Assembly: GCF_039649665.1 (NCBI RefSeq)
Contig: NZ_JBDJAW010000023.1
Location: 1-64,000, forward strand
DNA length: 64,000 nt
Reading direction: 5' to 3'
Source: Microbispora sp. ZYX-F-249
GTDB lineage: Bacteria; Actinomycetota; Actinomycetes; Streptosporangiales; Streptosporangiaceae
In this document: in pieces, positions 46,756 through 58,711 of the stretch
Layout of the letters: every line of letters starts with the position of its first letter
Position numbering within the stretch: the stretch's first letter is position 1
Notes under the pieces: generated by a model
Seen by the model: the letters and a program-made list of their open reading frames with translations, nothing else
What the model was told of the DNA's origin: nothing
The model's database searches: none
Made by a program: the position numbers and the translations under genes

Positions 46756-47637
46756 CTAAGCGGTGAGGGGTACGAACAGGTCACCGTGTTCCGCCACCCG
46801 CTCCAGCACGTCGGCAGCGGTGAACACCAGCTGGTCCGGGCTGTCGCACGACTCGACCTCCTCCCACAGCAGGGGAGTGGACGCGGTCGGCCGCCGGGCG
46901 GCGCGCAGCGAATAGGGCGCGACGGTCGTCTTGGCCGGGTTGTTCTGGCTCCAGTCGATGAAGACCTTGCCCGGCCGCTCCTTCTTCGCCATCACGCTGG
47001 TCACGAACGGATGCTCCGCCTGCATCCGCCGGGCGAGCGTCTTGGCGTACTCGGACGTGCCCGGTCCCCGGTCCCAGGGGACGTAGAGCTGCATGCCCTT
47101 CTGCCCGCTGGTCTTGGGAAAGCCGTGCAGGCCGTCGTCCGCCAGGGCCTGCCGCAGCAGGACGGCGACGCGGCAGCAGTCGACGATCGTGGCCGGGGCG
47201 CCCGGGTCCAGGTCGAAGACGAGGGTGTCGGGCGGCTGCGGCTCGCCGTCCTTGGCCACCCGCCACATCGGCACGTGGATCTCCAGGGCTGCCAGGTTGG
47301 CGTAGTAGACCAGGGTCGGCAGGTCGTCCACGACCGCGAAGTCGATCTCTTCGCGGTTCTTGGTGCTGCCCGGCGCGGGCAGGGTCACCGTACGGACCCA
47401 GTCGGGCGTGTGCTCCGGGGTGTTCTTCTCGAAGAAGAACTGGCCTTCGACGCCGTTCGGGTAACGCTTGACCGTGAGCGGGCGCCCCTTCAGGTGCGGC
47501 AGCAGGACCGGTGCGATCCGGGTGTAGTAGTCGATCACCTCGGCCTTGGTGAACGCGGTGTCGGGATAGAGGACCTTGTCCAGATTGGTCAGGGCCAGCA
47601 GGCGGCCCTCGACCTTCACCCGCACCTTCTCGCTCAT
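46756..47637 (-). CDS. LigD-type NHEJ polymerase (primase-like) domain protein
   Basis: A 293-residue protein from ATG 47635-47637, which overlaps the ligase gene stop (ATGA). LTNLDKVLYP ... AEVIDYYTRIAPVLLPHLKGRP opens the archaeo-eukaryotic-primase-type fold; FDLDPGAPA carries two metal Asp residues, and the conserved SGQKGMQLYVPW and IDWSQNNPAKTTVAPYSLR follow. It extends ends with rNTPs/dNTPs in non-homologous end joining. In mycobacteria this domain is fused to ligase in LigD; here it is a separate gene. Confidence 0.92.
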   Translation of the reverse strand: MSEKVRVKVEGRLLALTNLDKVLYPDTAFTKAEVIDYYTRIAPVLLPHLKGRPLTVKRYPNGVEGQFFFEKNTPEHTPDWVRTVTLPAPGSTKNREEIDFAVVDDLPTLVYYANLAALEIHVPMWRVAKDGEPQPPDTLVFDLDPGAPATIVDCCRVAVLLRQALADDGLHGFPKTSGQKGMQLYVPWDRGPGTSEYAKTLARRMQAEHPFVTSVMAKKERPGKVFIDWSQNNPAKTTVAPYSLRAARRPTASTPLLWEEVESCDSPDQLVFTAADVLERVAEHGDLFVPLTA

Positions 47638-48590
47638 TCCTGCTCCTCCCGCCGCACGTCCGCGGGGACCTTGTCGGCACGCACGCCCCGCCACACGGGG
47701 TTGCGCAGCCGCCCGTCGCGCGTCCACATCGTGAACGCCACCTCGCCGACCACTTCGGGCCGGACCCATCGGGCGTTCCTGGAGATCTCCCTCGGCAGCC
47801 CGTCCGAGAAGGGGCTCTGCCCGATCTCGAGCGGCTCAATCAACCGGAGCAGGTCGCCGAGCGTGGCGTCGGTGAACCCGGTGCCCACGTGGCCGGCGAA
47901 GCGGAACTCGGCCGGGGAGGTCCCGGCGTACACGCCGAGCAGGAGCGAACCGACGCCGCCCGCGCGGCGGCCCTTGCCGGGCCGCCAGCCGCCGACGACC
48001 ACCTCGGCGGTGCGCAGGTTCTTGATTTTGATCCACCAGTCCGCCCTGCGCCCCGGCCGGTACGGCGAGTCGAGGCGCTTGGCGACCACGCCCTCCAGTC
48101 CCTGCCGCCTGGTGGCCTCCAGCACGGCCGGTTCACAGGGGAAGCACGGCGGCGCGTCCAGGCCGAGCGAGTCGAGCAGCGCCCGGCGGTCCCGGTACGG
48201 CAGGTCGAGCAGCGTGTGCCCGTCGAGATGGAGCAGGTCGAAGGGCAGGTAGGAGACCGGCAGCCGGCCGAGCAGGTGGGCCCCGGCGGGATCGGTGATG
48301 TGCATGCGCCTCTGCAGCCGGGCGAAGCTGGGCCGGCCCTCGGGGTCGAAGGCCACCACCTCGCCGTCGACGACCGCCCTGCGGCCGGCGAGCGGCGCCA
48401 TGGCGGCCGGGATCTCGGGATACCGCGAGGTGAAGTCGGCGCCGTGCCGCCCGGTCACCCGCACGCCGCCGTCGACGTACGCGAGCGCGCGGATGCCGTC
48501 CCACTTCACCTCCAGCGCGTACGCCTCGGGGTCGAGGGGGATTTCTCCTGGGATGGCAAGCATCGGCTCGATCGGATACGGCACCGCCAT
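47634..48590 (-). CDS. ligD: ATP-dependent DNA ligase (LigD ligase domain)
   Basis: A 318-residue ligase. The adenylation Lys is in LEVKWDGIRALAY (KxDG), VVDGEVVAF is motif III-like, EGVVAKRLDSPYRPGRR motif IV, and WWIKIKN motif V, followed by an OB domain ending VWRGVRADK. The protein lacks the nuclease and polymerase parts of LigD. It is divergent from ku, and its stop overlaps the polymerase gene, so the three make a compact end-joining set. Confidence 0.93.
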   Translation of the reverse strand: MAVPYPIEPMLAIPGEIPLDPEAYALEVKWDGIRALAYVDGGVRVTGRHGADFTSRYPEIPAAMAPLAGRRAVVDGEVVAFDPEGRPSFARLQRRMHITDPAGAHLLGRLPVSYLPFDLLHLDGHTLLDLPYRDRRALLDSLGLDAPPCFPCEPAVLEATRRQGLEGVVAKRLDSPYRPGRRADWWIKIKNLRTAEVVVGGWRPGKGRRAGGVGSLLLGVYAGTSPAEFRFAGHVGTGFTDATLGDLLRLIEPLEIGQSPFSDGLPREISRNARWVRPEVVGEVAFTMWTRDGRLRNPVWRGVRADKVPADVRREEQE

Positions 48591-48667
48591 AGTGGGTACC
48601 TGCCCATCAGGTAACTCCCTTGAATCCCACCATGGCGTTGTTCGAACACAGAGACGAGAATGTGGCT

Positions 48668-49591
48668 ATGCGCAGCATCTGGAAAGGCGCGATCTCGTTC
48701 GGTCTGGTCACCATCCCGGTGAAGCTGTACTCGGCCACCGAACAGAAGGACGTGGCGTTCCACCAGGTGCACCGGGAGGACGGCGGGCGGATCAAGTACA
48801 AGCGGGTCTGCTCGGTCGACGGGGAAGAGGTGCCGTACTCCGACATCGCCAAGGGATACGAGCTGGCGACCGGCGAGATGGTCGTGCTGACCGACGAGGA
48901 CTTCGCCGACCTGCCGCTGACCACCTCCCGCAGGATCGACGTGCTGCAGTTCACCCCCGCGGAGCAGATCGACCCCATCTACTTCGCGAAGTCCTATTAC
49001 CTGGAGCCGGACGGGCAGGGCGCCAAGCCGTACGTGCTGCTGCGGGACGCGCTGGAGCGGTCCGGACAGGTGGCGGTCGTCAAGGTCGCCCTGCGGCAGC
49101 GGGAGTCGCTGGCCGCCCTCCGCGTGCGTGACGGCGTCTTCGTGCTGGAGACCATGCTCTGGCCCGACGAGATCCGCGAGGCCGACTTCGGGTTCCTGGA
49201 GGAGGACGTCGACGTACGTCCCCAGGAGCTGAAGATGGCCGAGTCCCTGATCGAGACCATGGTCGCGGACTTCGACCCCACCGAGTACAAGGACGCCTAC
49301 CGGGAGGCGCTGCAGGAGGTCATCGAGGCCAAGGTGGCCGGCAAGGAGCTCGTCGCCCCCGAGGCCCCCGCGGAGGCCGGCCCCGCCGTCGACCTCATGG
49401 CCGCGCTGCGGGCCAGTGTCGAGGCGGCGAAACGGGAGCGTCAGGGCGTCACGGAGACCAAGGCGCCAGGCAGGGCCGCCAAGGCCAAGGCCGCGGCCTC
49501 CTCCGGGACCGCCGCCAGGAAGGCCGCGTCGGACGGCGCGGACGAGGAGGAGAAGGCGCCCAAGAAGCGGAAGACCCGCCGGTCCGCGTGA
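48668..49591 (+). CDS. ku: Non-homologous end-joining protein Ku
   Basis: A 307-residue protein from ATG 48668; the family consensus MRSIWKGAISFGLV sets this start over an ATG 16 codons upstream. The beta-barrel core continues with KLYSATE...VAFHQVH and GGRIKYKRVC, and the C-terminus has an extended Lys/Ala-rich tail (RAAKAKAAAS ... KKRKTRRSA) as in bacterial Ku proteins that bind DNA ends and recruit LigD. Divergent from ligD. Confidence 0.95.
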   Translation: MRSIWKGAISFGLVTIPVKLYSATEQKDVAFHQVHREDGGRIKYKRVCSVDGEEVPYSDIAKGYELATGEMVVLTDEDFADLPLTTSRRIDVLQFTPAEQIDPIYFAKSYYLEPDGQGAKPYVLLRDALERSGQVAVVKVALRQRESLAALRVRDGVFVLETMLWPDEIREADFGFLEEDVDVRPQELKMAESLIETMVADFDPTEYKDAYREALQEVIEAKVAGKELVAPEAPAEAGPAVDLMAALRASVEAAKRERQGVTETKAPGRAAKAKAAASSGTAARKAASDGADEEEKAPKKRKTRRSA

Positions 49592-49618
49592 GCCCGCACC
49601 TGCTCACAGCTGTTCTGA

Positions 49619-49654
49619 GGAGCCCCGGCGGATCGATCCGCCGGGGCTTTCTTC
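49619..49654 (+). terminator. Terminator downstream of ku
   Basis: A perfect palindrome from AGCCCCGGCGGATC to GATCCGCCGGGGCT (49621-49648) ends in TTTCTT, a classic intrinsic terminator 30 bp after the ku stop. It may also serve the convergent Asn-rich cluster from the other side. Confidence 0.9.
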
Positions 49655-49814
49655 ACGGTACGGAAGTGGGCGATCCGTACAGGGCCGCGAGCTCTCGGCC
49701 GCCCGTTCACCGCCGCCCGATCGCCACGGAGGTGGCGGAGGCGTGATCAGGGCGGGCCCGGACACCGCGGCTTCGCGCTGACGGCCCTGTACGCGTGGGT
49801 GTCACCCGTCAGTG

Positions 49815-50120
49815 TCAGTCGTCGTCGTCGCCGTCGATCTCGATGACGGCGTCACCGGATGCGAAGGCCACGTTCTTCCGGTTGACCTTCTTCTCCTTCT
49901 CGTACTTGAGCTTGAAGACGCGGAAGTCGTTGCGGTTGACGGCCGCGTTGCGGCAGCCGCGACCGCGACGTCCGTAGTGGTCACCGTGGCCCCAGTTGCT
50001 GGTCATGGTCGGGGTGCCAGGGGCGGCTGCCTGAGCGGCGGTGGCGCTCAGGGCGAGCGCGCCGCCGGCCATTACCGTACTGACCGCCAGACCGGTGATG
50101 ACGTTCCGGAATTTGGGCAT
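49815..50120 (-). CDS. Small secreted protein, outlier of the Asn-rich cluster
   Basis: A 101-residue secreted protein behind GAGGAGGACCTCA. The signal peptide MPKFRNVITGLAVSTVMAGGALALSATAAQA closely resembles those of the following paralogs. The mature part is about 70 residues, Arg/Asn/Gly-rich at the start (GHGDHYGRRGRGCRN), then FRVFKLKYEKEKKV and DAVIEIDGDDDD. It lacks the NNWW repeats but shares the RNDF and acidic alternating (VIEID) end. It sits last in the series of six genes; its leader carries the hairpin and a variant of the upstream element. Confidence 0.8.
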   Translation of the reverse strand: MPKFRNVITGLAVSTVMAGGALALSATAAQAAAPGTPTMTSNWGHGDHYGRRGRGCRNAAVNRNDFRVFKLKYEKEKKVNRKNVAFASGDAVIEIDGDDDD

Positions 50121-50260
50121 TGAGGTCCTCCTCGAAGGATGGAGTGCCCGAGTACGACATTTCCAGGGTCTGTCGGAAATGTCCGAGCGATGTCCTGTAT
50201 GTCCGACTATCGCCCGTGGCGTCTTAATTGCCGATGTGGCCTGCCGGCAAACTCGGCCGG
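50121..50260 (-). promoter_or_regulatory. Leader of outlier gene: GTTTGCCGGC element and hairpin
   Basis: Reading the minus strand, GTTTGCCGGC (50243-50252) lies about 123 nt before the start, and GACATTTCC (50156-50164) with GGAAATGTC (50175-50183), as written on the plus strand, forms a perfect 9-bp hairpin immediately before the ribosome binding site. Similar elements occur in four other leaders of the cluster. Confidence 0.6.
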
Positions 50261-50522
50261 AGGGGATTTGGGGCGGGGTTGTGCTGCGATGTGTGGCGTT
50301 GAGTGATCGCTGACCTGATCGACGTTCATGTCTGACGTGTCCCGGCGGGACGCGGGGTAGGGGGGCTTCCCGGTCGGCGGCGCGGTGTTCTCAATCCCCG
50401 GTTCTCGTGTGCTTCGTCCCTGTCGCGCCGCTGTCCGGGGAGGGCGGCGGCGGGTGTGGGGCGGGCCGGTTCACCCGATGGGAGAGGGGGTGGCGGGGTG
50501 GGGACCGGGCGCGCAAAGGTCA

Positions 50523-50551
50523 GGGCTCCGGCGAGGATCTCGCCGGAGCCC
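50523..50551 (-). terminator. Terminator of the second Asn-rich gene (copy 1 of shared hairpin)
   Basis: GGGCTCCGGCGAG and CTCGCCGGAGCCC form a perfect 13-bp stem with a 3-nt loop, about 200 nt downstream of the Asn-rich gene at 50750. Almost the same sequence recurs at 51786-51816 and 53030-53058. Confidence 0.8.
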
Positions 50552-50749
50552 TTATCTCATGCCATCCCGTGGAGGGCGTTTTCAGGCTTCCGCTCGCTCG
50601 GCGCGCGGGTGCGCTGAGAACGCCTGGCTGCACTCACCGGCGCCGTCGTTCCCGGCTGGTGGCGGGGAGGGACGCGCGGGCGGCTTGCCCGCTCCTCCCG
50701 TCACCCGGCCGGACGGCGCGGTGTCGCGCGAGGTGTCAGTCCTCGCGGA

Positions 50750-51298
50750 TCAGACGTCGTGGTTGGCGTTCTTGTTGTTGTTGTTGAAGCGCTCGCGGTC
50801 GTTGCGGTTCCACCAGTCGTTGTTGTTGTGGTCCCACCAGTTCTGGTCGGCCCACCAGTTGTTGTTGAGCCAGTTGAAGTCCTTGTCGTCCTTCTCCTGG
50901 AAACCGAAGGCGACATCCTTGGCGACGAGGCCGAAGGCGTCGTGCTGAGACTTGCCGTCCTTGTACAGGTTCTGGCCCCACCAGTTGTTGGTGTCCCACC
51001 AGTTGTTCTGGTTGCGGTCGTTGAGGTTGTGGTTCTGGTCGTTGCGCTGCGGGTTGTTGTTGTTGTTCGGGAAGAATGCGTTCGGGAAGTCGTTCCCCTT
51101 CTTGTTGTCCTGGGCGATGCCGCCCGTGCTGTCGTCGACGCCGTTGGCCGCGCCGTCCTTGACGATGGGGCTGTCGTTCTTCTTGAAGAAGAAGGGGTTG
51201 TCGTCGGCGCTGGCGGCCGTGGCACCCATGGCGACGGCCCCGCCGACGACGGCGGTGCTGAGCGCGAGCCCTGCGAAAATCTTCTTGAGGTTGGGCAT
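50750..51298 (-). CDS. Secreted Asn/Trp-rich protein A
   Basis: 182 residues from ATG 51296-51298 behind GGGAGGAACCATA. A Sec signal peptide (KKIFAGLALSTAVVGGAVAMGATAASA) is followed by a block PIVKDGAANGVDDSTGGIAQ shared with the next gene, an Asn-rich linker, and a core where NNWW, NWWGQN and WWADQNWWDHN surround AFGLVAKDVAFGFQEKDDKDFNW. The C-terminus is Asn/Arg/Lys-rich. No cysteine in the mature part. Unknown function; the Asn-rich, aromatic composition resembles prion-like or amyloid sequences. It is preceded by a long leader and followed by a shared-type terminator. Confidence 0.85.
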   Translation of the reverse strand: MPNLKKIFAGLALSTAVVGGAVAMGATAASADDNPFFFKKNDSPIVKDGAANGVDDSTGGIAQDNKKGNDFPNAFFPNNNNNPQRNDQNHNLNDRNQNNWWDTNNWWGQNLYKDGKSQHDAFGLVAKDVAFGFQEKDDKDFNWLNNNWWADQNWWDHNNNDWWNRNDRERFNNNNKNANHDV

Positions 51299-51480
51299 TA
51301 TGGTTCCTCCCTGACAGGATTCGATTTCGAATTGCCCTGCGTCTGTCGGCATTTCCCGTCCGTCTACTGTGGACAGGAATTCCTTCGTGGCTCTTATTGA
51401 GCCCTGCTTCCGACGCTAGTGGTGATTTCCTGCCGGACGGCCCGACAAACTGATGCCTGCTGCTTTTAGTTAATGATTAG
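51299..51480 (-). promoter_or_regulatory. Leader of protein A gene
   Basis: On the minus strand GTTTGTCGGGC (51440-51450) lies 142 nt before the start. Two hairpins follow: GGCTC/GAGCC (51389-51403) and an imperfect stem at 51348-51383 (GGCATTTCCCGTC against GACAGGAATTCC), the second ending about 50 nt before the start codon. Confidence 0.6.
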
Positions 51481-51720
51481 CTGCGTATAGGCTTGATTCG
51501 ATGGATAATGCGCCTTATGTAGGGATAGGTACGATTTGCCCCTCTGCTCTGGCCGGGTTCTGACGGTGCGGTGAGCGGAGGCGCCGGCTCACCCGCGCGA
51601 CGGAGGGACCAGTCCGAGGGAGCGCCGGCCGCCCGTAGGCACTCCCGGGGCGCGCCGGAGAAGGAATGGGCGCGACTGCGGGGCGGAAGTGGGCGGGCGG
51701 CGAAGGCCCGGAGGCACGTG

Positions 51721-51775
51721 GGCGGCCGTGACGACCGTGTGACGGCCGTGACGGCCGTGTGACGGCCGTGGCCGG
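51721..51775. repeat. Short direct repeats of the GTGACGGCCGT type
   Basis: A run of short imperfect direct repeats (GTGACGACCGT, GTGACGGCCGT twice with a shortened copy) directly precedes the shared hairpin at 51786. No function is evident; replication slippage in GC-rich spacer DNA is the simple reading. Confidence 0.6.
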
Positions 51776-51785
51776 GAAAAGAGCA

Positions 51786-51816
51786 GGGCTCCGGCGGAAC
51801 CTTCCCGCCGGAGCCC
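51786..51816 (-). terminator. Terminator of the third Asn-rich gene (copy 2 of shared hairpin)
   Basis: GGGCTCCGGCGG pairs with CCGCCGGAGCCC, 12 bp, downstream of the gene ending at 52026. The stem matches the other two copies except at the loop-proximal end. Confidence 0.8.
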
Positions 51817-52025
51817 TTGGTTGTCACTGTAGGAGGATTGACGGCCGTTCCCGTTCAGGCCGCCGTCGCTCGATGAGCGAGCGGCGGGCCGGTCGAGGAA
51901 CGTGTCTCCGCATTCAACGGCGCCAGTCCGTGTGCCGGGGTCGGAGACCTCGTGGGAGGTTCTCCGGATCCGTCACCTTCCCGGAGCGGCGCGATCGTCT
52001 CGCAGGAGCCGCTGGACCTGCCTTC

Positions 52026-52556
52026 TCAGTTCACGTGCTCGTTGTTGTTGTTGTTCCACCAGTTGTTGTCGTTGTTGTTCCACCAGTTGTTGTTCTGCCA
52101 CCAGCCGTTGTTGAACCAGGTGTTGTCCTTGTTCGTCTTGTCCTGGAAGCCGATCGCGACGTCCTTGGCGACGAGCCCGAAGCCGGAGAAGTCGTCGCGC
52201 CGGTCGGCGAAGGCGCCCTGGTTCCAGAAGCTCTGGTTGTTCCACCAGTTGTTGTTGTTGTTCTGGTTGAAGTCCTGGTTCTGGTTGTTGCGGTTGAAGT
52301 TGTTGTCGTTGTTCGGGCTGAAGAAGACAGGGAAGACGTTCTCCCGATCACCGCGGTCGCCGAAACCCCGGTTGCCCTGAGCGATGCCGCCAGTGCTGTC
52401 GTCGACACCGTTGGCCAGGCCGTCCCGGACGATCGGACGGTCGACGTCGCCGGTCCCGGTCGCGGCGCCGGCGGCACCGGCGCCCAGGGCGAGCACGCCG
52501 CCGACGGCGGCGGTGCTCAGCGCGAGACCGGCGATGATCTTGTGGAGCTTGGACAT
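52026..52556 (-). CDS. Secreted Asn/Trp-rich protein B
   Basis: 176 residues from ATG 52554-52556 behind AAGGGGGACACGC. A signal peptide (KIIAGLALSTAAVGGVLALGAGAAGA) is followed by PIVRDGLANGVDDSTGGIAQ, then Asn-rich linker and core: NNWWNNQSFWNQ, FGLVAKDVAIGFQDKTNKD, WFNNGWWQNNNWWNNN, ending in NNWWNNNNNEHVN. It is the closest paralog of proteins A and C; the FGLVAKDVAIGF strand between Trp-rich halves is the most conserved piece. No Cys in the mature protein. Unknown function. Confidence 0.86.
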   Translation of the reverse strand: MSKLHKIIAGLALSTAAVGGVLALGAGAAGAATGTGDVDRPIVRDGLANGVDDSTGGIAQGNRGFGDRGDRENVFPVFFSPNNDNNFNRNNQNQDFNQNNNNNWWNNQSFWNQGAFADRRDDFSGFGLVAKDVAIGFQDKTNKDNTWFNNGWWQNNNWWNNNDNNWWNNNNNEHVN

Positions 52557-52740
52557 GCGTGTCCCCCTTGACAGGATTCAGTATCCCTGAATTTGTTTAG
52601 GGCATTTCTTCGAAATGTCCTTCGGGCTCTTGATTGAGCCCTAACTTCCTGTGCTGTCATGATTTCCAGCGAGCTGGCCCGACAAACGGCACTCTAAGCC
52701 TTTTGATCACTAGTTAGACTCTTATGAGCTGACTTAGAGG
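52557..52740 (-). promoter_or_regulatory. Leader of protein B gene
   Basis: On the minus strand GTTTGTCGGGC (52677-52687) lies 121 nt upstream of the start, after a block CTCTAAGTC...CATAAGAG...GATCAAAAGGC shared almost base for base with the protein C leader. Hairpins GGGCTC/GAGCCC (52624-52641) and GGGCATTTC/GAAATGTCC (52600-52620) follow, then the ribosome binding site. Confidence 0.65.
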
Positions 52741-53029
52741 AATTAGAAGAGAAATGTCTCAATTGACCGATTTACGGCGTTGCGTCTCGCGGCTCTGGAC
52801 GGACACGAAGGCGGCGCCCTGATAGGTGGGGTGTCGTCGGCAGGCACCGTTGCCGTCCGACTCCGGCCGATCCGGAGTCCGGGAGGGGCGGTCCGGCGGG
52901 GCCTGTGGTGCCGGCACCCGCGCTCGAGGCCGTCGCCTCGGGCTCCGTGCCGGACGGCGGAACCCGAAGGGTCTTGGGGAGAGGCTCGCGTCCGTATGCG
53001 TGGGGTCCGCCGTACCGGGGGAAAAGTCA

Positions 53030-53058
53030 GGGCTCCGGCGAGAGTCTCGCCGGAGCCC
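53030..53058 (-). terminator. Terminator of the fourth Asn-rich gene (copy 3 of shared hairpin)
   Basis: GGGCTCCGGCGAGA and TCTCGCCGGAGCCC form a near-perfect palindrome (about 12-14 bp), downstream of the gene that ends at 53263. The flanking AGTCAGGGCT and CCCTTGTCTG also match the first copy. Confidence 0.8.
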
Positions 53059-53262
53059 TTGTCTGCTGGATAGAACGGCCGTTCCCGGAGCGTGGAGTGC
53101 TCACGGAGCTTGCGACGCCGCGGGAACGTGACTGCGCCTCAGGGCGCCGTTCTCCTGTCGAGGCGGTGGAGTACGGTGTGGCCGGCCGTTTCCGTCATCC
53201 TTCACCTCCCAGGATTCCGAGCGGCGCGGTCGTCTTGTGGACCGTTGCCGGCCCCGCCTTTC

Positions 53263-53730
53263 TCAGTTGCAGAAGTTGTTGTTGCCGTTGTTCCAGTTGT
53301 TGCAGTTGTTGTTGTTCCACCAGTTGTTGTTCTGGAACCAGCCGTTGTTGAACCAGTTGCTCTCGCGGTTGGTCTTGTCGCTGAACGCGATCGTGGCGCA
53401 GGGGCCGACGATGGCGAAGTTGGAGTCGCTGTCGAGGTTGTCGCAGAACGCGCTCTGGTTCCAGAAGCTCTGGTTGTTCCAGAAGTTGTTGTTCTGGTTG
53501 TTGTTGCACCAGTTGTTGTTGTCGCAGTTGTTGTTGAAGCCGTTGCCACAGTTGTTGTTGTTGTTGCCCAGTCCGATGGGAACGAAGTTGTTCTGGGGCG
53601 GCATGCCGCCGAGACCGAAGAAGCCGTCTCCGCAGCCGGCGCTCGCGGCCGTGGCGCTCATGGCGATCGCGCCCCCCGCGATCGCGGTGCCGAGTGCGAG
53701 GCCGGCGAGAACGTTCTTGAACTTAGGCAT
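53263..53730 (-). CDS. Secreted Asn/Trp/Cys-rich protein C
   Basis: 155 residues from ATG 53728-53730 behind AAGGGGGACAGCA. After the signal peptide (FKNVLAGLALGTAIAGGAIAMSATAASA) the predicted mature part has 44 Asn in 123 residues and eight Cys (even number, possible disulfides), in contrast to A and B. The shared core is present: NNNFWNNQSFWNQ, FAIVGPCATIAFSDKTNRESNW, FNNGWFQNNNWW. The PIVKDG block is missing. Unknown function; exported and probably rigidified by disulfides. Confidence 0.86.
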   Translation of the reverse strand: MPKFKNVLAGLALGTAIAGGAIAMSATAASAGCGDGFFGLGGMPPQNNFVPIGLGNNNNNCGNGFNNNCDNNNWCNNNQNNNFWNNQSFWNQSAFCDNLDSDSNFAIVGPCATIAFSDKTNRESNWFNNGWFQNNNWWNNNNCNNWNNGNNNFCN

Positions 53731-53925
53731 TGCTGTCCCCCTTGAAAAGGATTGGAATTCCCCGCATCCTCCGATATTTCTCACTGGAGATTCGAGAGAA
53801 ATATCTCTATGGCCCCCGTGGGCCGGGTTCCTGCGATACGTTGATGTCCGACGTGCGAGCCCGACAAACGCGCCTCTGTAGCCTTTGATCTGCTATTAGA
53901 GCTTTATGGCGGGACTTAGAGTAAT
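53731..53925 (-). promoter_or_regulatory. Leader of protein C gene
   Basis: GTTTGTCGGGC (53859-53869, minus strand) lies 129 nt upstream of the start, after the same CTCTAAGTC...GATCAAAGGC block as in protein B. Hairpins GGCCC/GGGCC (53811-53824) and a perfect 10-bp stem GATATTTCTC/GAGAAATATC (53773-53805) follow. The second stem differs in sequence from those of the other leaders but pairs fully. Confidence 0.65.
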
Positions 53926-54346
53926 AAAGGGCGACTTGTCCAGGAATGTCCGATTTGTTGAGTCGGACGTCCGGCGGTCACGTGGAATGGCCAGGGGCGT
54001 CCGGGCGGACATGCCCGGCAGGCGTCACGGGCGGGGCGCCGGGAGGATGGGGAGCCGGCCTGGTGTGCCTCGTGAGGAGTGCCGTCGCGCGAGCTTCTGC
54101 GAAGCCCTGTCGAGGGCACGTGGAGGGCCGCGGAGGGCCGTGCAGGGCACGAGAAGGCCTGACGGCACGGCCGACGCGTGCCGACCGCGTCGTCCGGCGG
54201 GAGCGGGCCGCTTGAGGCGGCCGTACGCGATTCGGAGGGAGTCGCGACATGGCCGTGCGGGGCCGGCGGAAGCGTGCCGCACGTCCGCGTGCGGCGTCAC
54301 ACGGACGCCGGGGCGGCGGAGGCGGCGAATCTCTGCGCAACGAGAA

Positions 54347-54401
54347 GCGCCCGTGCTCGCGGGAGCCGCGGAGACGGTCCACGGTCGGCGAGCACGGGCG
54401 C
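54347..54401 (-). terminator. Terminator of the fifth gene
   Basis: GCGCCCGTGCTCGC and GCGAGCACGGGCGC form a 14-bp inverted repeat with a loop of about 27 nt, about 80 nt downstream of the gene that ends at 54479. It is unrelated in sequence to the three shared hairpins. Confidence 0.7.
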
Positions 54402-54478
54402 CCTTCAGTCGACCCCCGGGCCTGTCACCGGGTGTCAGCGCAGCCGGTCACCCGGCAACGTTCACGGGATGCCCGCGA

Positions 54479-55114
54479 TCAGGGCACGTAGAAGCCGGAG
54501 GCGTCGGAGCCGGAACCGTAGCCGTCCCGGTCGTACATCCCGTGGTGCTTCTTCTTGTCCTTGTCCTTGATGTCGGCGTCGACGTCGATGTCGACATCCT
54601 TGGTCTTGGCCTGCGGGTTGATCTCGGTGGCCGTGTTCGTGCGCGGGTCGGCCTGCGAGGCCTGGTCCTGCCAGGGCCGGTTGTGCAGCTGGTTGTAGTC
54701 GCTGGTGTTGGTGTACGGAATCGTGGAGTTCTGCGACCACTGGGAGTTCCACGGAACCGCGGCGGAGCCGTTCGACGACTTCTGGAACGGCGTGAGCACG
54801 AGCGTGAAGTCACGCAGCAGGAACTGGCTCTGGTTCTCCGACTGACGAGCGTGCTGCCACTCGTGGTTCTTGTTCTTGTTCTTGTTCTTGTTCTTGTTAC
54901 GGCCCTTCTGCCCCTGGGCCTGCCGGTTGGTGTTGTAGTTGCGGTTGTAGGTCGGCCGGACGTAGCGGACGCCGCCGGACGGAGCGGGAACGTACCCGCC
55001 CATGACGGTCGCTGCGCTGGCCGTGCCGGCGGTGGCGCCGCCGAGCGCGATGGCCGCGCCGCTCAGCGCGGTGCCGAGGGCGAGAAGCCCGGCGATGTTC
55101 TTCAACGCGGACAT
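54479..55114 (-). CDS. Secreted NK-repeat protein, subfamily 2 member 1
   Basis: 211 residues from ATG 55112-55114 (AGAGGAG 10 nt upstream). A signal peptide (LLALGTALSGAAIALGGATAGTASA) precedes ATVMGGYVP, a basic Asn-rich part with NKNKNKNKNKN, then FLLRDFTLVLTPFQK, a Ser/Asn/Pro/Tyr region (PYTNTSDYNQ), TNTATEINPQAKTK and an alternating strand DVDIDVDADIKDKDKKK. Order and motifs match the next gene but not the WW-rich trio. Its own leader has only a GC-rich hairpin and lacks the GTTTGTCGG element. Confidence 0.84.
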   Translation of the reverse strand: MSALKNIAGLLALGTALSGAAIALGGATAGTASAATVMGGYVPAPSGGVRYVRPTYNRNYNTNRQAQGQKGRNKNKNKNKNKNHEWQHARQSENQSQFLLRDFTLVLTPFQKSSNGSAAVPWNSQWSQNSTIPYTNTSDYNQLHNRPWQDQASQADPRTNTATEINPQAKTKDVDIDVDADIKDKDKKKHHGMYDRDGYGSGSDASGFYVP

Positions 55115-55200
55115 TTGGGTGTTTCTCCTCTGAATATCGCGACCCCGGCCCGGTCCCGTTGGGGGACCGGAGCGGGTGGTAGTGGTTCGGCGCCGTCGTG
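55115..55200 (-). promoter_or_regulatory. GC-rich leader hairpin of the fifth gene
   Basis: CCGGTCCC (55150-55157) and GGGACCGG (55163-55170) form a stem just upstream of the ribosome binding site. It takes the place of the ATTTCC/GGAAAT hairpin of the other leaders but shares no sequence with it, so a relation is doubtful. Confidence 0.4.
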
Positions 55201-55514
55201 TGTGACGCGGCGCGATGCGTTCGCTCGCACCGGCGGTCCTCTCCTCGAACACGCCACCGGTGCTCTGCTTCCTCAACTGCTCGTTCGACCGCGGGACGGA
55301 GCGGCGGAAGGGTGGCGCCGGCGCCGTGTCTCACGGTCGTCCGGTCGCCGCCCGTCCCGCAGGGCGGTGTCCGCCGCTCCGGTCTCGCGTGTTTCTTCCG
55401 TCGCTCGCGCACTCCGGCTCAGGCGAGGCCGCCGGTCACGAGTACGGGTGGCCGCGGGTTGCCGCGTCACCCGCCGTGGCCGGGACGTTCATGAGGCCGT
55501 TTGTGCGGATCCGA

Positions 55515-56126
55515 TCACTCCGCGATAACCTGCGGGCGGTCGTAGCCGCGGTCGTAGCCGCCGTCGTAGCCCTTCTTCTTCTCCTTCTCCACGTCGACGT
55601 CGATGTCCGCGTCGATGTCCTTCTTCTTGATGCGCGGGTTGACCTCGGTGGCCGTGTTCGTCTTCGGCTGGGCCAGGGACTCCTGGTCCTGACGCGGGTT
55701 GTTGAACTGGTCGCTGTAGCTGTTCGTACGCGTGTACGGGTACGACTGCGTGTTGCCGTACTGCCAGTTGTACGGAAGCGCCCGCGCGTCGGTGTCCGTC
55801 TTCTGGAACGGCGTGAGGACGAGCGTGAAGTCACGCAGCAGGAACTGGTTCTGGGCCTGGTTCTGCCGCTCGTGCTGCCACTGCTTGGTCTTGTTCTTGT
55901 TCTTGTTCTTGTTGCCGTTCAGGGCCTTGTTCTTCTGCCGCTGCCCATTCCGGTTGCGGTTGTAGTTCACGTAGGGGTAGTAGCCACCGCCGCCGCCCAC
56001 GTAGCCACCCATCACGGTGGCCGCGTTCGCGCTGCCGGCGGCGACAGCGGTGCCCACGGTGACGGCACCGCCGGTGAGCGCGGCGCTGATCGCGAGGATC
56101 CCGACCAGGTTGTTGAACTTGGGCAT
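55515..56126 (-). CDS. Secreted NK-repeat protein, subfamily 2 member 2
   Basis: 203 residues from ATG 56124-56126 behind AAGGAGGACATGAA. A signal peptide (VGILAISAALTGGAVTVGTAVAAGSANA) precedes ATVMGGYVGGGGGYYPYVNYNRNRNG, NKNKNKNKTKQWQHERQ, QFLLRDFTLVLTPFQK, PYTRTNSYSDQFN, TNTATEVNP and DIDADIDVDVEKEKKK. It is the closest paralog of the preceding entry. The alternating Asp/Ile-Val stretch would form a two-faced beta strand. The first gene of the six in transcription order; it has a long leader with the shared element. Confidence 0.84.
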   Translation of the reverse strand: MPKFNNLVGILAISAALTGGAVTVGTAVAAGSANAATVMGGYVGGGGGYYPYVNYNRNRNGQRQKNKALNGNKNKNKNKTKQWQHERQNQAQNQFLLRDFTLVLTPFQKTDTDARALPYNWQYGNTQSYPYTRTNSYSDQFNNPRQDQESLAQPKTNTATEVNPRIKKKDIDADIDVDVEKEKKKGYDGGYDRGYDRPQVIAE

Positions 56127-56300
56127 TTCATGTCCTCCTTGAAGGATTGTTGCCCCGACACTCCGGCGTTTTCCAAGTCGTTCGGAAAATGCCCTTACTG
56201 ATGACCCTTGGTGGATCATCCCTGCATTGTCTTGTTTTCCTCACCGTCCGAGTGACAAACGGCGATCAGCGGCTTTTGCCATTCACTTATCGCTTTATTG
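56127..56300 (-). promoter_or_regulatory. Leader of subfamily 2 member 2 gene
   Basis: GTTTGTCAC (56252-56260, minus strand) lies 126 nt upstream of the start. Hairpins GATGACCC/GGATCATC (56200-56220, one wobble pair) and GGCGTTTTCC/GGAAAATGCC (56165-56193) follow before the ribosome binding site: the same two-hairpin layout as in the WW-rich leaders. Confidence 0.6.
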
Positions 56301-56519
56301 GCATCGTTGACACCGGTAGCATCGCATTGGTCCGAATTGTGATTCCTATCCGCATTTCGAAATGTCCGAATAGGGGTGATATTGGCCCTATGTCGCTCTC
56401 GCCGATCGGGGCGAACCCGGATGATCGATCTCGTGCCCCCGGGGTAGCGGGAGTGCCCGCCGAGGTGACGTACGGGCGGGGTTATGGTCGAGAAACGCGA
56501 GGCGAACAGGGGAGGACGC

Positions 56520-57434
56520 GTGGGTGTCGAGCCGATTCCACCGTGGCCCGGCAGGCTCATCGAGCTGGGGGACGCGCGCATCCATGTGCGGACGACCCCG
56601 GAGGGGCCGCCGGAGACCGCCGTATACGTGCACGGACTGGCGGGCTCGGCGACCAACTGGACCGACCTCATGGGCGCGCTCGCCGACGATGTGCGGGGCG
56701 TCGCCGTCGACCTGCCCGGGGCGGGGCACTCCCCGGAGCCGGCGGACGGCGACTATTCGGTCCCCGCCCATGCCGGAGCGGTGGTCCGTCTGGTGGAGGC
56801 CCTGGGGGAGGGGCCCGTCCACCTTCTCGGCAATTCCATGGGCGGCGCGGTCTCGGTCAGGGTCGCGGCCACACGGCCCGACCTCGTCAGGTCGCTGACG
56901 CTGGTCTCGCCGGCGCTGCCCGACCTGCTGCCGAGATACGGCCCGGCCAGGATCGCGATGTCGGCCGCCCCGCGGCTGGGCGAGCTGGCCGCCCGCTGGC
57001 TCAGCGCGCTGCCGCCGGAGCGGCGCATCCAGGCGACGCTCAGCATGTGCTACGCCGACGTCGGGCGGGTCCACCCGGAGCGGCTGCGCGAGGCGGTCGA
57101 GGAACTGCGCCGCCGCGACAGGCTGCCGCACGCGGGGGCGGCCATGGTGGGCTGTGCCCGCGCGATCGTGCGGGAGTACTTCCGCCTGGGCCCGGACAAC
57201 CTCTGGCGGCAGGCCGAGCGGGTCTCCGCGCCCACCCTCGTCGTGTACGGCCTGCGCGACCGGCTGGTCCACGCCCGCATGGCGCACCGGGCCGGACGGG
57301 TCTTCCGTGACGTGCGCCTGGTCACACTTCCGCACGCCGGTCACGTGGCGCAGATGGAGTATCCCGAGCTCGTGGCCCGGGAGGCGCGACGCCTGCTGGC
57401 CTACACCAGGGAATCTCTGCGCCGAACAGCCTGA
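56520..57434 (+). CDS. Alpha/beta hydrolase
   Basis: A 304-residue hydrolase. The GTG at 56520 is chosen because GGGGAGG is 4 nt upstream and homologs start near PWPGRLIELG. Active-site elements: YVHGLAGSATNW, LLGNSMGGAVS (nucleophile Ser), VVYGLRDRLVHARM (Asp), LPHAGHVAQME (His). A carboxylesterase of the Rv3203/LipV kind is likely. It is followed by moeZ after 98 bp. Confidence 0.9.
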   Translation: MGVEPIPPWPGRLIELGDARIHVRTTPEGPPETAVYVHGLAGSATNWTDLMGALADDVRGVAVDLPGAGHSPEPADGDYSVPAHAGAVVRLVEALGEGPVHLLGNSMGGAVSVRVAATRPDLVRSLTLVSPALPDLLPRYGPARIAMSAAPRLGELAARWLSALPPERRIQATLSMCYADVGRVHPERLREAVEELRRRDRLPHAGAAMVGCARAIVREYFRLGPDNLWRQAERVSAPTLVVYGLRDRLVHARMAHRAGRVFRDVRLVTLPHAGHVAQMEYPELVAREARRLLAYTRESLRRTA

Positions 57435-57532
57435 TTGGGGAATGCGGGGCCACCCCGGTTAAGTTGTGAGAAGAGCTTGTGATGGGCCCATGGAGCCGAG
57501 CGCGACATTGGCACGAAAACGGGAGTGGAACT

Positions 57533-58711
57533 GTGTCGTTGCCACCGCTGGTAGAGCCGGCAGCAGAGCTGACGGTTGACGAGGTGCGCCGCTACTCGCG
57601 CCACCTGATCATCCCCGACGTCGGCATGGCGGGTCAGAAGCGCCTGAAGAACGCCAAGGTGCTGTGTGTGGGCGCGGGCGGCCTGGGCTCTCCCGCGCTG
57701 CTGTACCTGGCCGCGGCCGGGGTCGGGACGCTCGGCATCGTCGACTTCGACGTCGTGGACGAGTCGAACCTGCAGCGCCAGGTGATCCACGGACAGTCGG
57801 ACGTGGGCCGCCTGAAGGCCGAGTCCGCCGCCGCGAGCGTGCGCGAGATCAACCCGCTGGTCAACGTCATCATTCACAACGTCGCTCTCACGACCGACAA
57901 CGTGATGGACATCTTCTCCGGCTACGACCTCATCGTGGACGGCACGGACAACTTCGCCACCCGCTACATGGTCAACGACGCGGCGGTGCTGCTGGGCAAG
58001 CCGTACGTGTGGGGGTCCATCTACCGGTTCGACGGGCAGGCCAGCGTCTTCTGGGCCGAGCACGGTCCCTGCTACCGCTGCCTCTACCCCGAGCCCCCGC
58101 CGCCCGGCATGGTCCCGAGCTGCGCCGAGGGCGGCGTCCTCGGCGTGCTGTGCGCGTCGATCGGCTCCATCCAGGTGAACGAGGCCATCAAGGTCATCAC
58201 CGGCGTCGGCGAGCCGCTCGTCGGCCGCCTGATGATCTACGACGCCCTCGAGATGAAGTACCGGGACGTCAAGGTCCGCAAGGACCCCGAGTGCCCGCTG
58301 TGCGGCAAGAACCCGTCGATCACCGAGCTGATCGACTACGAGGCGTTCTGCGGCACGCTCTCGGACGAGGCGCAGCAGGCCGCCGCGGGCAGCACGATCA
58401 CCGCGGGCGAGCTCGAGGCGATGCGCGAGCGGGGTGAGGAGATCATGCTCATCGACGTCCGCGAGCCGAACGAGTACAAGATCGTCAACATCCCCGGCGC
58501 CGTGCTGATCCCCAAGGGCGAGTTCCTCAACGGCTCGGCCCTGGAGCGGCTGCCGCAGGACAAGAAGATCGTGCTGCACTGCAAGTCGGGCGCCCGCTCG
58601 GCCGAGGTCCTCGCGGTCCTCAAGAACGCCTGCTTCTCCGACGCCGTCCACGTGGGCGGCGGCGTGCTGAGCTGGATCAAGACGGTCGACCCCAGCCTGC
58701 CGACCTACTGA
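57533..58711 (+). CDS. moeZ: Adenylyltransferase/sulfurtransferase MoeZ
   Basis: A 392-residue two-domain protein, the length of MoeZ in M. tuberculosis; GTG 57533 follows GGAG. The ThiF-type adenylation domain has GAGGLGSPALLYLAAAGVG and DGTDNFATR, with CPLCGK as zinc ligands together with CYRC. The C-terminal rhodanese domain has the sulfur-carrying Cys in VLHCKSGARSAEVL. It activates sulfur-carrier proteins (MoaD, CysO and related) for molybdopterin, thiamine or cysteine synthesis. Confidence 0.96.
   Translation: MSLPPLVEPAAELTVDEVRRYSRHLIIPDVGMAGQKRLKNAKVLCVGAGGLGSPALLYLAAAGVGTLGIVDFDVVDESNLQRQVIHGQSDVGRLKAESAAASVREINPLVNVIIHNVALTTDNVMDIFSGYDLIVDGTDNFATRYMVNDAAVLLGKPYVWGSIYRFDGQASVFWAEHGPCYRCLYPEPPPPGMVPSCAEGGVLGVLCASIGSIQVNEAIKVITGVGEPLVGRLMIYDALEMKYRDVKVRKDPECPLCGKNPSITELIDYEAFCGTLSDEAQQAAAGSTITAGELEAMRERGEEIMLIDVREPNEYKIVNIPGAVLIPKGEFLNGSALERLPQDKKIVLHCKSGARSAEVLAVLKNACFSDAVHVGGGVLSWIKTVDPSLPTY

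Follow-up and report, generated by a model that had tools for sequence, protein, structure and literature searches.

Why do six small genes stand in tandem between a Ku gene and an alpha/beta-hydrolase gene in Microbispora sp. ZYX-F-249, a soil-dwelling, spore-forming actinomycete of the Streptosporangiaceae, and what might their predicted secreted products do outside the cell? The genes lie in a 64,000-nucleotide (nt) stretch (positions 1 to 64,000 of contig NZ_JBDJAW010000023.1, assembly GCF_039649665.1), which we call the window. The six tandem minus-strand genes reported by a first-pass annotation of this DNA were found at the places given there, with spacers of 629, 727, 706, 748, and 400 nt; we number them 1 to 6 from the Ku side and refer to genes 2, 3, and 4 as A, B, and C. 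That original observation holds, yet the set is larger than six, since at least five further related genes occur elsewhere in the window's genome. The annotation had missed a shared upstream cassette, a chromosomal slot between Ku and a hydrolase-ThiF pair, the dispersed paralogues, and fusions to other domains. The family and its cassette are well supported. As to function, we give about even chances to the view that the array would be the core of a jointly expressed system of Streptosporangiaceae that forms an extracellular matrix or exoskeleton and in which the protein cores assemble and some members carry cargo.

The leaders of the six proteins resembled one another: profile A1, built from 20 leaders with these six among them, scored them at E values from 2e-9 to 3.6e-16 in this genome. 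The relatedness of the signal peptides was thereby borne out, whereas the pattern first proposed for them was too strict and fitted only A and C literally. Behind the leader, A and B had in common an Asn/Trp-rich region around FGLVAKDVA[IF]GFQ[DE]K, and the form in C was diverged (profile A4). The claim that a GLVAKDVA core runs through A, B, and C was accordingly confirmed for A and B and, judged by eye, not for C, which has FAIVGPCATIAFSDK instead. Genes 5 and 6 encoded a common Asn/Lys/Gln-rich region followed by LLRDFTLVLTPFQK, the LLRDF core (profile A3). Treating the A/B core and the LLRDF core as one "FQK" strand motif was tried and dropped, the profiles showing no similarity.

No Pfam family was reached by any of the six proteins in a scan up to E 5, including the chaplin family PF03777 and curlin repeats, and no NCBIfam family scored above its cut-off. 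None of the six matched a rodlin model in NCBIfam, a library not verified to include one. A sequence search of the PDB with the A/B-type and LLRDF core profiles gave no solved relative, and no description of these proteins was found in the literature (open-licence papers only); passages of PMC4514598 and PMC4709908 had no bearing on them. These results agree with the earlier statements that no chaplin motif is seen and that no described system of this kind is known, and the four sources gave no described family to which the proteins belong.

The cassette upstream of most family members consists of GTTTGT-N14-GG(A/C)AAT, two hairpins, often a GGGGCAA box, a ribosome-binding site, and the start codon. 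Upstream of 173 family genes (near-duplicates included), GTTTG and GGAAA occurred together 92 times, 80 times with a gap of precisely 15 nt. A regular expression found the cassette at 125 of the 173 genes but did not recognize the GGACAT form at gene 4; alignment A2 and the covariance model R1 were made from 52 of the 125. Across 21 array loci R1 matched 91 times, in 89 cases directly 5' of one of the 106 leader-family genes there; the 90th match preceded a gene-1-like gene missed by the leader profile, and the last was weak. Fourteen of the 17 leader-family genes without a cassette were, like gene 5, of the LLRDF type and not proximal to the hydrolase. Seven comparison loci contained no R1 match. 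Six whole genomes were covered as well, with scoring of 150 out of several hundred first-look candidates in each, and 45 of the 47 matches preceded a family member; one of the other two was weak (E 0.036). At the other, locus L136 (approximately 977-1401), the cassette is followed by a DUF6444 frame, which we take to be an IS66-like insertion, and further on by a B-like remnant, so that a family gene was apparently interrupted by an insertion element.

In the window's genome there were seven R1 matches, five of them training sequences; the two others were the cassette of gene 4 (53731-53869) and C1:320100. All five exact copies of the bipartite motif in this genome stood before a family member, and with one mismatch six sites were found, one being that of gene 4, compared with two for a reversed control pattern. 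A relative, genome G144, contained at least 14 cassette matches on several contigs besides the array, pointing to family expansion there.

The two boxes of the cassette resemble a promoter of the SigB/SigF type. According to excerpts of PMC8346170, SigB homologues of Streptomyces coelicolor recognize GTTTAA-N12-14-GGG(A/T)A(A/T), and GTTT is more conserved at promoters of the sporulation-specific SigF, SigH, and SigN. We compared 93 of the 125 cassettes, leaving out eight Microbispora loci as near-duplicates. All 93 had the GTTT -35-like box by selection, the unselected evidence being the spacing peak of 80/92. Their spacer was 14 nt in 88 and 13 nt in four, within the SigB-type range of 12-14 nt, and 15 nt in one. 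Thus the GTTT box and 14-nt spacer are shared with the S. coelicolor promoters described in those excerpts of PMC8346170, whereas GG(A/C)AAT lacks the third G and is followed by a conserved two-hairpin leader. GGG at the start of the -10 box occurred in none of the five window cassettes, and it was excluded by the search pattern in the 93; because this G is missing in the window, we call the putative promoter SigB-like, not SigB-dependent. A sigma-70 consensus scan gave no promoter.

Compared with dinucleotide shuffles, the leaders folded with a mean z of -2.52 over the 93 cassettes, and an upstream control gave -0.13. Pair counting over the 52 aligned sequences gave 82 double-change cells versus 29.6 in shuffled alignments (0/500), with slid controls at 26-40. 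These folding statistics and the covariation support the predicted two-hairpin leader. An Rfam search of 49500-56700 returned six matches up to E 5, all below the gathering score and judged to be chance. Two further boxes lay 5' of the GTTTGTC box and may be regulator sites: TCGGACAT in 53 of the 173 family upstream regions (median position -222) and CAATAAAG in 31 (median -173).

The LLRDF core was also found in larger proteins. It was fused to a beta-lactamase/DD-peptidase-type domain (PF00144) in the three proteins of this kind covered by the Pfam scan, L137, L139, and L154 (E 3e-57, 1.2e-56, and 4e-53), for which the best NCBIfam relative was the AmpH carboxypeptidase, below cut-off. Collagen-like repeats occurred in fusions L140 and L141 (Pfam E 3.9e-4 and 0.013; 20.6 and 15.7 bits versus a cut-off of 27.2), and a collagen-like fusion matched the SclB model at E 3.8e-7, below cut-off. 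Other fusions had Pro/Ala/Thr-rich tails or long regions without a Pfam match. A cassette match ended at most 3 nt from the start codon in 12 of 15 LLRDF fusion loci. Seven of the 15 had entered the set through R1 hits, so that only the other eight are a fair test; in five of those eight, fetched by the LLRDF profile alone, the cassette ended at the start codon, with E values from 5.2e-6 to 0.0057. In several Microbispora, L137, L139, L154, L156, L158, and L160 seemingly combine the LLRDF module with a single beta-lactamase/DD-peptidase-type domain. In L155 (C27:66412 of the window's genome) and L157 the module is followed by several hundred residues, those of L157 without a Pfam match.

The array recurs at one chromosomal position. 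All 29 array loci (two to eight genes each), which were chosen because family genes were present in them, adjoined a pair of genes for an alpha/beta-hydrolase and a ThiF-rhodanese protein, presumably of the MoeZ type; Ku stood on the other side in 27, and no Ku lay within the fetched stretch in the remaining two. By strict bounds one of the four genes of L059 falls outside the slot, because the flanks were measured stop to stop. Microbispora loci L038-L045, whose contigs are the same as those of eight genomes of the drawn set, had six genes in this slot in 8/8 cases, the gene at A's place in L045 best matching B; L062 and L063 had five genes each. The array is not a chance arrangement, as the same slot and gene number recur across Microbispora loci. 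In Microbispora and several relatives, the LLRDF type stood at the hydrolase, the acidic-tail type at Ku, and the Asn/Trp-rich type between them.

The leader profile matched 70 of 250 genomes drawn from Streptosporangiaceae, in 14 of 68 genera, and protein B matched 37 of the 250 at E 0.001, in some through the leader only. In a class-wide draw of 394 genomes, of which 365 had no kinship shown so that the number outside Streptosporangiaceae is uncertain, the leader matched nine, all Streptosporangiaceae, and the LLRDF profile six, all Microbispora. Within the genomes searched, the family is restricted to Streptosporangiaceae. Among genomes without leader matches, 12 were searched with Ku, 10 matched, and seven loci were fetched: three had Ku followed by the hydrolase and ThiF genes, a slot without a leader match; one had Ku beside the ThiF gene, one had ThiF 6 kb away, and two lacked these flanks. 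Other small open reading frames (ORFs) with signal-peptide-like starts lay in two of the three empty slots. In one genome without leader matches, the span between Ku and the hydrolase contains, at L171:1847-2353 (-), an ORF for a His-rich product that begins like a signal peptide but has a leader of another type.

Behind the same kind of leader, other genera encoded Gly/Trp/His/Arg-rich or Asn/His/Gln/Arg-rich proteins, and the mature parts differed greatly between genera. A conserved leader before a strongly variable mature part might indicate secreted antimicrobial or bacteriocin-like proteins, and gene 1 matched lactococcin 972 (TIGR01653) weakly (E 0.0076; 16.5 bits versus a cut-off of 32.1). 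However, this match covered residues 7-51, mainly the leader; mature parts could be aligned between Microbispora species with their Asn content kept; the LLRDF module also occurs joined to enzymes and to collagen-like repeats; and the genes closest to the array encode a DNA ligase, Ku, a hydrolase, and a ThiF protein, not immunity or export functions. We consider an antimicrobial role quite improbable. A role in metal binding or storage, suggested by His/Cys/Gly-rich members in several genera and by the His-rich protein in the slot of L171, appears even less probable: the mature proteins of A and B and of genes 5 and 6 contain no Cys, and what the family has in common is the leader and cassette, not metal ligands.

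With cleavage sites placed by eye, Asn made up 44 of 124 mature residues in C (35.5%), 26.2% in B, 24.5% in A, approximately 11% in genes 5 and 6, and 8.6% in gene 1, as compared with 0.6-3.7% in the four flanking proteins. The reported Asn count of C was recovered, here over a mature length of 124 instead of 123, and Asn or Asn/Lys richness, ascribed to all six, applied to A, B, C, and genes 5 and 6; at 8.6%, gene 1 is not really Asn-rich. Only B and C exceeded the threshold of 30 Gln plus Asn per 80 residues (33 and 34, respectively); A reached 27, and the products of genes 5 and 6 reached 25. Neither this composition nor the AlphaFold models, both of low confidence, demonstrates the amyloid nature that the first-pass annotation suggested.

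From these features we propose the following course. The shared cassette would provide a SigB/SigF-type promoter and a transcript beginning with two hairpins; the genes would be transcribed jointly from it, perhaps under stress or while aerial hyphae or spores develop, so that the proteins are made together. The proteins would be exported by the Sec route. Outside the cell, their short strand-forming cores and polar-aromatic segments could associate into a hyphal or spore matrix, and members fused to DD-peptidase-type or collagen-like domains might be held in or on it through the LLRDF module. The structural or matrix role suggested by the first-pass annotation gained indirect support only, from the fusion of the gene 5/6 core to collagen-like repeats and DD-peptidase-type domains and from the likeness of the shared promoter-like motif to the SigB/SigF type. 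More tentatively, a SigB-like promoter with a dedicated two-hairpin leader may co-express fast-diversifying low-complexity scaffolds, with the LLRDF core as a docking or co-polymerization tag that places enzymes and collagen-like rods in the hyphal or spore matrix, which would be a new kind of assembly system.

The same fusions and promoter boxes fit the strongest rival, namely that these are cell-wall-binding proteins and not a polymer. The polar repeats and core would then bind peptidoglycan or wall polymers, and under stress the fusions would bring an enzyme of the DD-peptidase type, or a collagen-like rod, to the wall. PF00144 as fusion partner, the SigB-like boxes, and the net positive mature proteins of genes 5 and 6 (+7 and +8) favor wall binding, whereas A, B, and C carry a net negative charge (-8, -7, and -5) and are rich in Asn and Trp, many minimal copies have no cargo, and Pfam and NCBIfam gave no known wall-binding domain in the six. 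On balance wall binding seems unlikely.

Known extracellular systems offer partial parallels to the proposed matrix. Curli subunits such as CsgA are Gln/Asn-rich secreted proteins that assemble outside the cell; the array proteins share the composition, the predicted secretion, and the proposed extracellular assembly, and differ in having no Pfam match and a single core instead of tandem repeats. Chaplins are hydrophobic and form an amyloid coat at the air-water interface. With them the family shares several small signal-peptide proteins per genome, longer relatives with the same module, and a proposed hyphal or spore role, whereas the six proteins are polar, Asn/Gln-rich, and without a PF03777 match; the logic may thus resemble that of chaplins in proteins that would not be counted among them. 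Collagen-like proteins of the SclA/SclB type may have their counterpart in the repeats of L140 and L141, which score below curated cut-offs and in which the N-terminal LLRDF region is the part common to the array family. Rodlins are likewise coat proteins of sporulating actinomycetes; in the excerpted text of PMC4255298, obvious rodlins are reported only in streptomycetes, and the exoskeletal proteins described (chaplins, rodlins, and SapB) were worked out in Streptomyces.

Several results weigh against a co-expressed matrix. Another coat protein is present in the same genome, where C1:81908-83347, on another contig than the array, gave six ChpA-C matches, those listed falling within one 726-residue frame. 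No cassette precedes gene 5 or most of its counterparts, even though these genes are located within the array, and among the eight loci fetched by the LLRDF profile alone two had no cassette match and one had a weak match 85 nt off (E 0.033). Many of the 52 R1 training cassettes are among the later matches, so that the match counts show consistency and not independent discovery. The second box of the cassette has no counterpart to the third G of the SigB -10 box. The reverse complement of the leader also folded better than shuffles (mean z -1.89; the forward strand had the lower z in 67/93), so that a DNA palindrome may lie behind the signal; RNAalifold predicted no pairs on alignment A2, which led us to fold single sequences and to count pairs, and the helices counted were picked from A2 itself. 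Comparison of the two main core profiles revealed no similarity, so a single common assembly core is not established. AlphaFold gave nothing usable for gene 6 (mean predicted local distance difference test score, pLDDT, 46.5) and, for B (mean pLDDT 37.9), a low-confidence beta-hairpin over the core at residues 124-139. The signal peptides from which secretion is predicted were judged by eye.

Constraint on the mature parts was also weak, the ratio of nonsynonymous to synonymous substitution rates (dN/dS) within Microbispora being 0.54-0.88. Such high values, and the runs of AAC codons visible in the array genes, would suit low-complexity genes of little function that drift as AAC triplets expand. 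Over nine orthologues per gene, Asn was encoded by AAC 1495 times versus 23 times by AAT. Against drift, conservation extends to the slot, the signal peptides, the cores, the cassettes, and the percentage of Asn, Asn richness being maintained over the nine orthologues (32-42% in C), and the leader shows covariation; we regard drift as the least probable reading, and a very remote one. The array as a replacement for missing chaplins was ruled out, since chaplin repeats occur in the same genome and in 15/15 Microbispora genomes, the other 14 having 5-8 ChpA-C matches each.

The array supplies candidate coat proteins for Streptosporangiaceae, and the cassette can serve as a genome-wide finder for further members. 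The RNA leader has no Rfam match, and the LLRDF core may be a short targeting module for surface display. Because the slot is conserved while its mature proteins differ from genus to genus, surface-protein evolution can be compared directly across genera.

Table 1. Array genes, cassettes, and flanking features in the window, and related genes elsewhere in the same genome (contig:position); aa, amino acids
Feature	Position	Strand	Description
Gene 1	49815..50120	-	101 aa; Sec-type signal peptide; acidic C-terminal tail (GDAVIEIDGDDDD); Ku-proximal array member
Gene 2 (A)	50750..51298	-	182 aa; Asn/Trp-rich; FGLVAKDVAFGFQEK core
Gene 3 (B)	52026..52556	-	176 aa; Asn/Trp-rich; FGLVAKDVAIGFQDK core
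Gene 4 (C)	53263..53730	-	155 aa; Asn-rich; 8 Cys; diverged core FAIVGPCATIAFSDK
Gene 5	54479..55114	-	211 aa; Asn/Lys/Gln-rich; LLRDFTLVLTPFQK core; shared cassette not found upstream
Gene 6	55515..56126	-	203 aa; Asn/Lys/Gln-rich; LLRDFTLVLTPFQK core; hydrolase-proximal array member
Cassette of gene 1	50121..50252	-	Promoter-like motif and predicted two-hairpin 5' leader; R1 training sequence
Cassette of gene 2	51299..51450	-	R1 training sequence
Cassette of gene 3	52556..52687	-	R1 training sequence
Cassette of gene 4	53731..53869	-	Second box GGACAT; outside R1 training set
Cassette of gene 6	56127..56260	-	R1 training sequence
ATP-dependent DNA ligase (PF01068, PF04679)	47634..48590	-	Adjoins Ku
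Ku protein (PF02735)	48620..49591	+	One flank of array slot
Alpha/beta hydrolase (PF00561)	56484..57434	+	Opposite flank of array slot
ThiF + rhodanese protein (PF00899, PF00581)	57479..58711	+	Adjoins hydrolase
Terminator-like hairpin	51785..51817	-	3' of gene 3; computed scan
Hairpin similar to that of gene 3	50522..50552	-	3' of gene 2; read off sequence
Hairpin similar to that of gene 3	53029..53059	-	3' of gene 4; read off sequence
Further family gene	C10:70815		
Further family gene	C1:319764		LLRDF-core protein
Further family gene	C1:60314		LLRDF-core protein
Further family gene	C16:116516		LLRDF-core protein
Further family gene	C27:66412		LLRDF-core protein

Terminator-like sites were found 16 times in the array region, versus 8.8 expected from shuffles.

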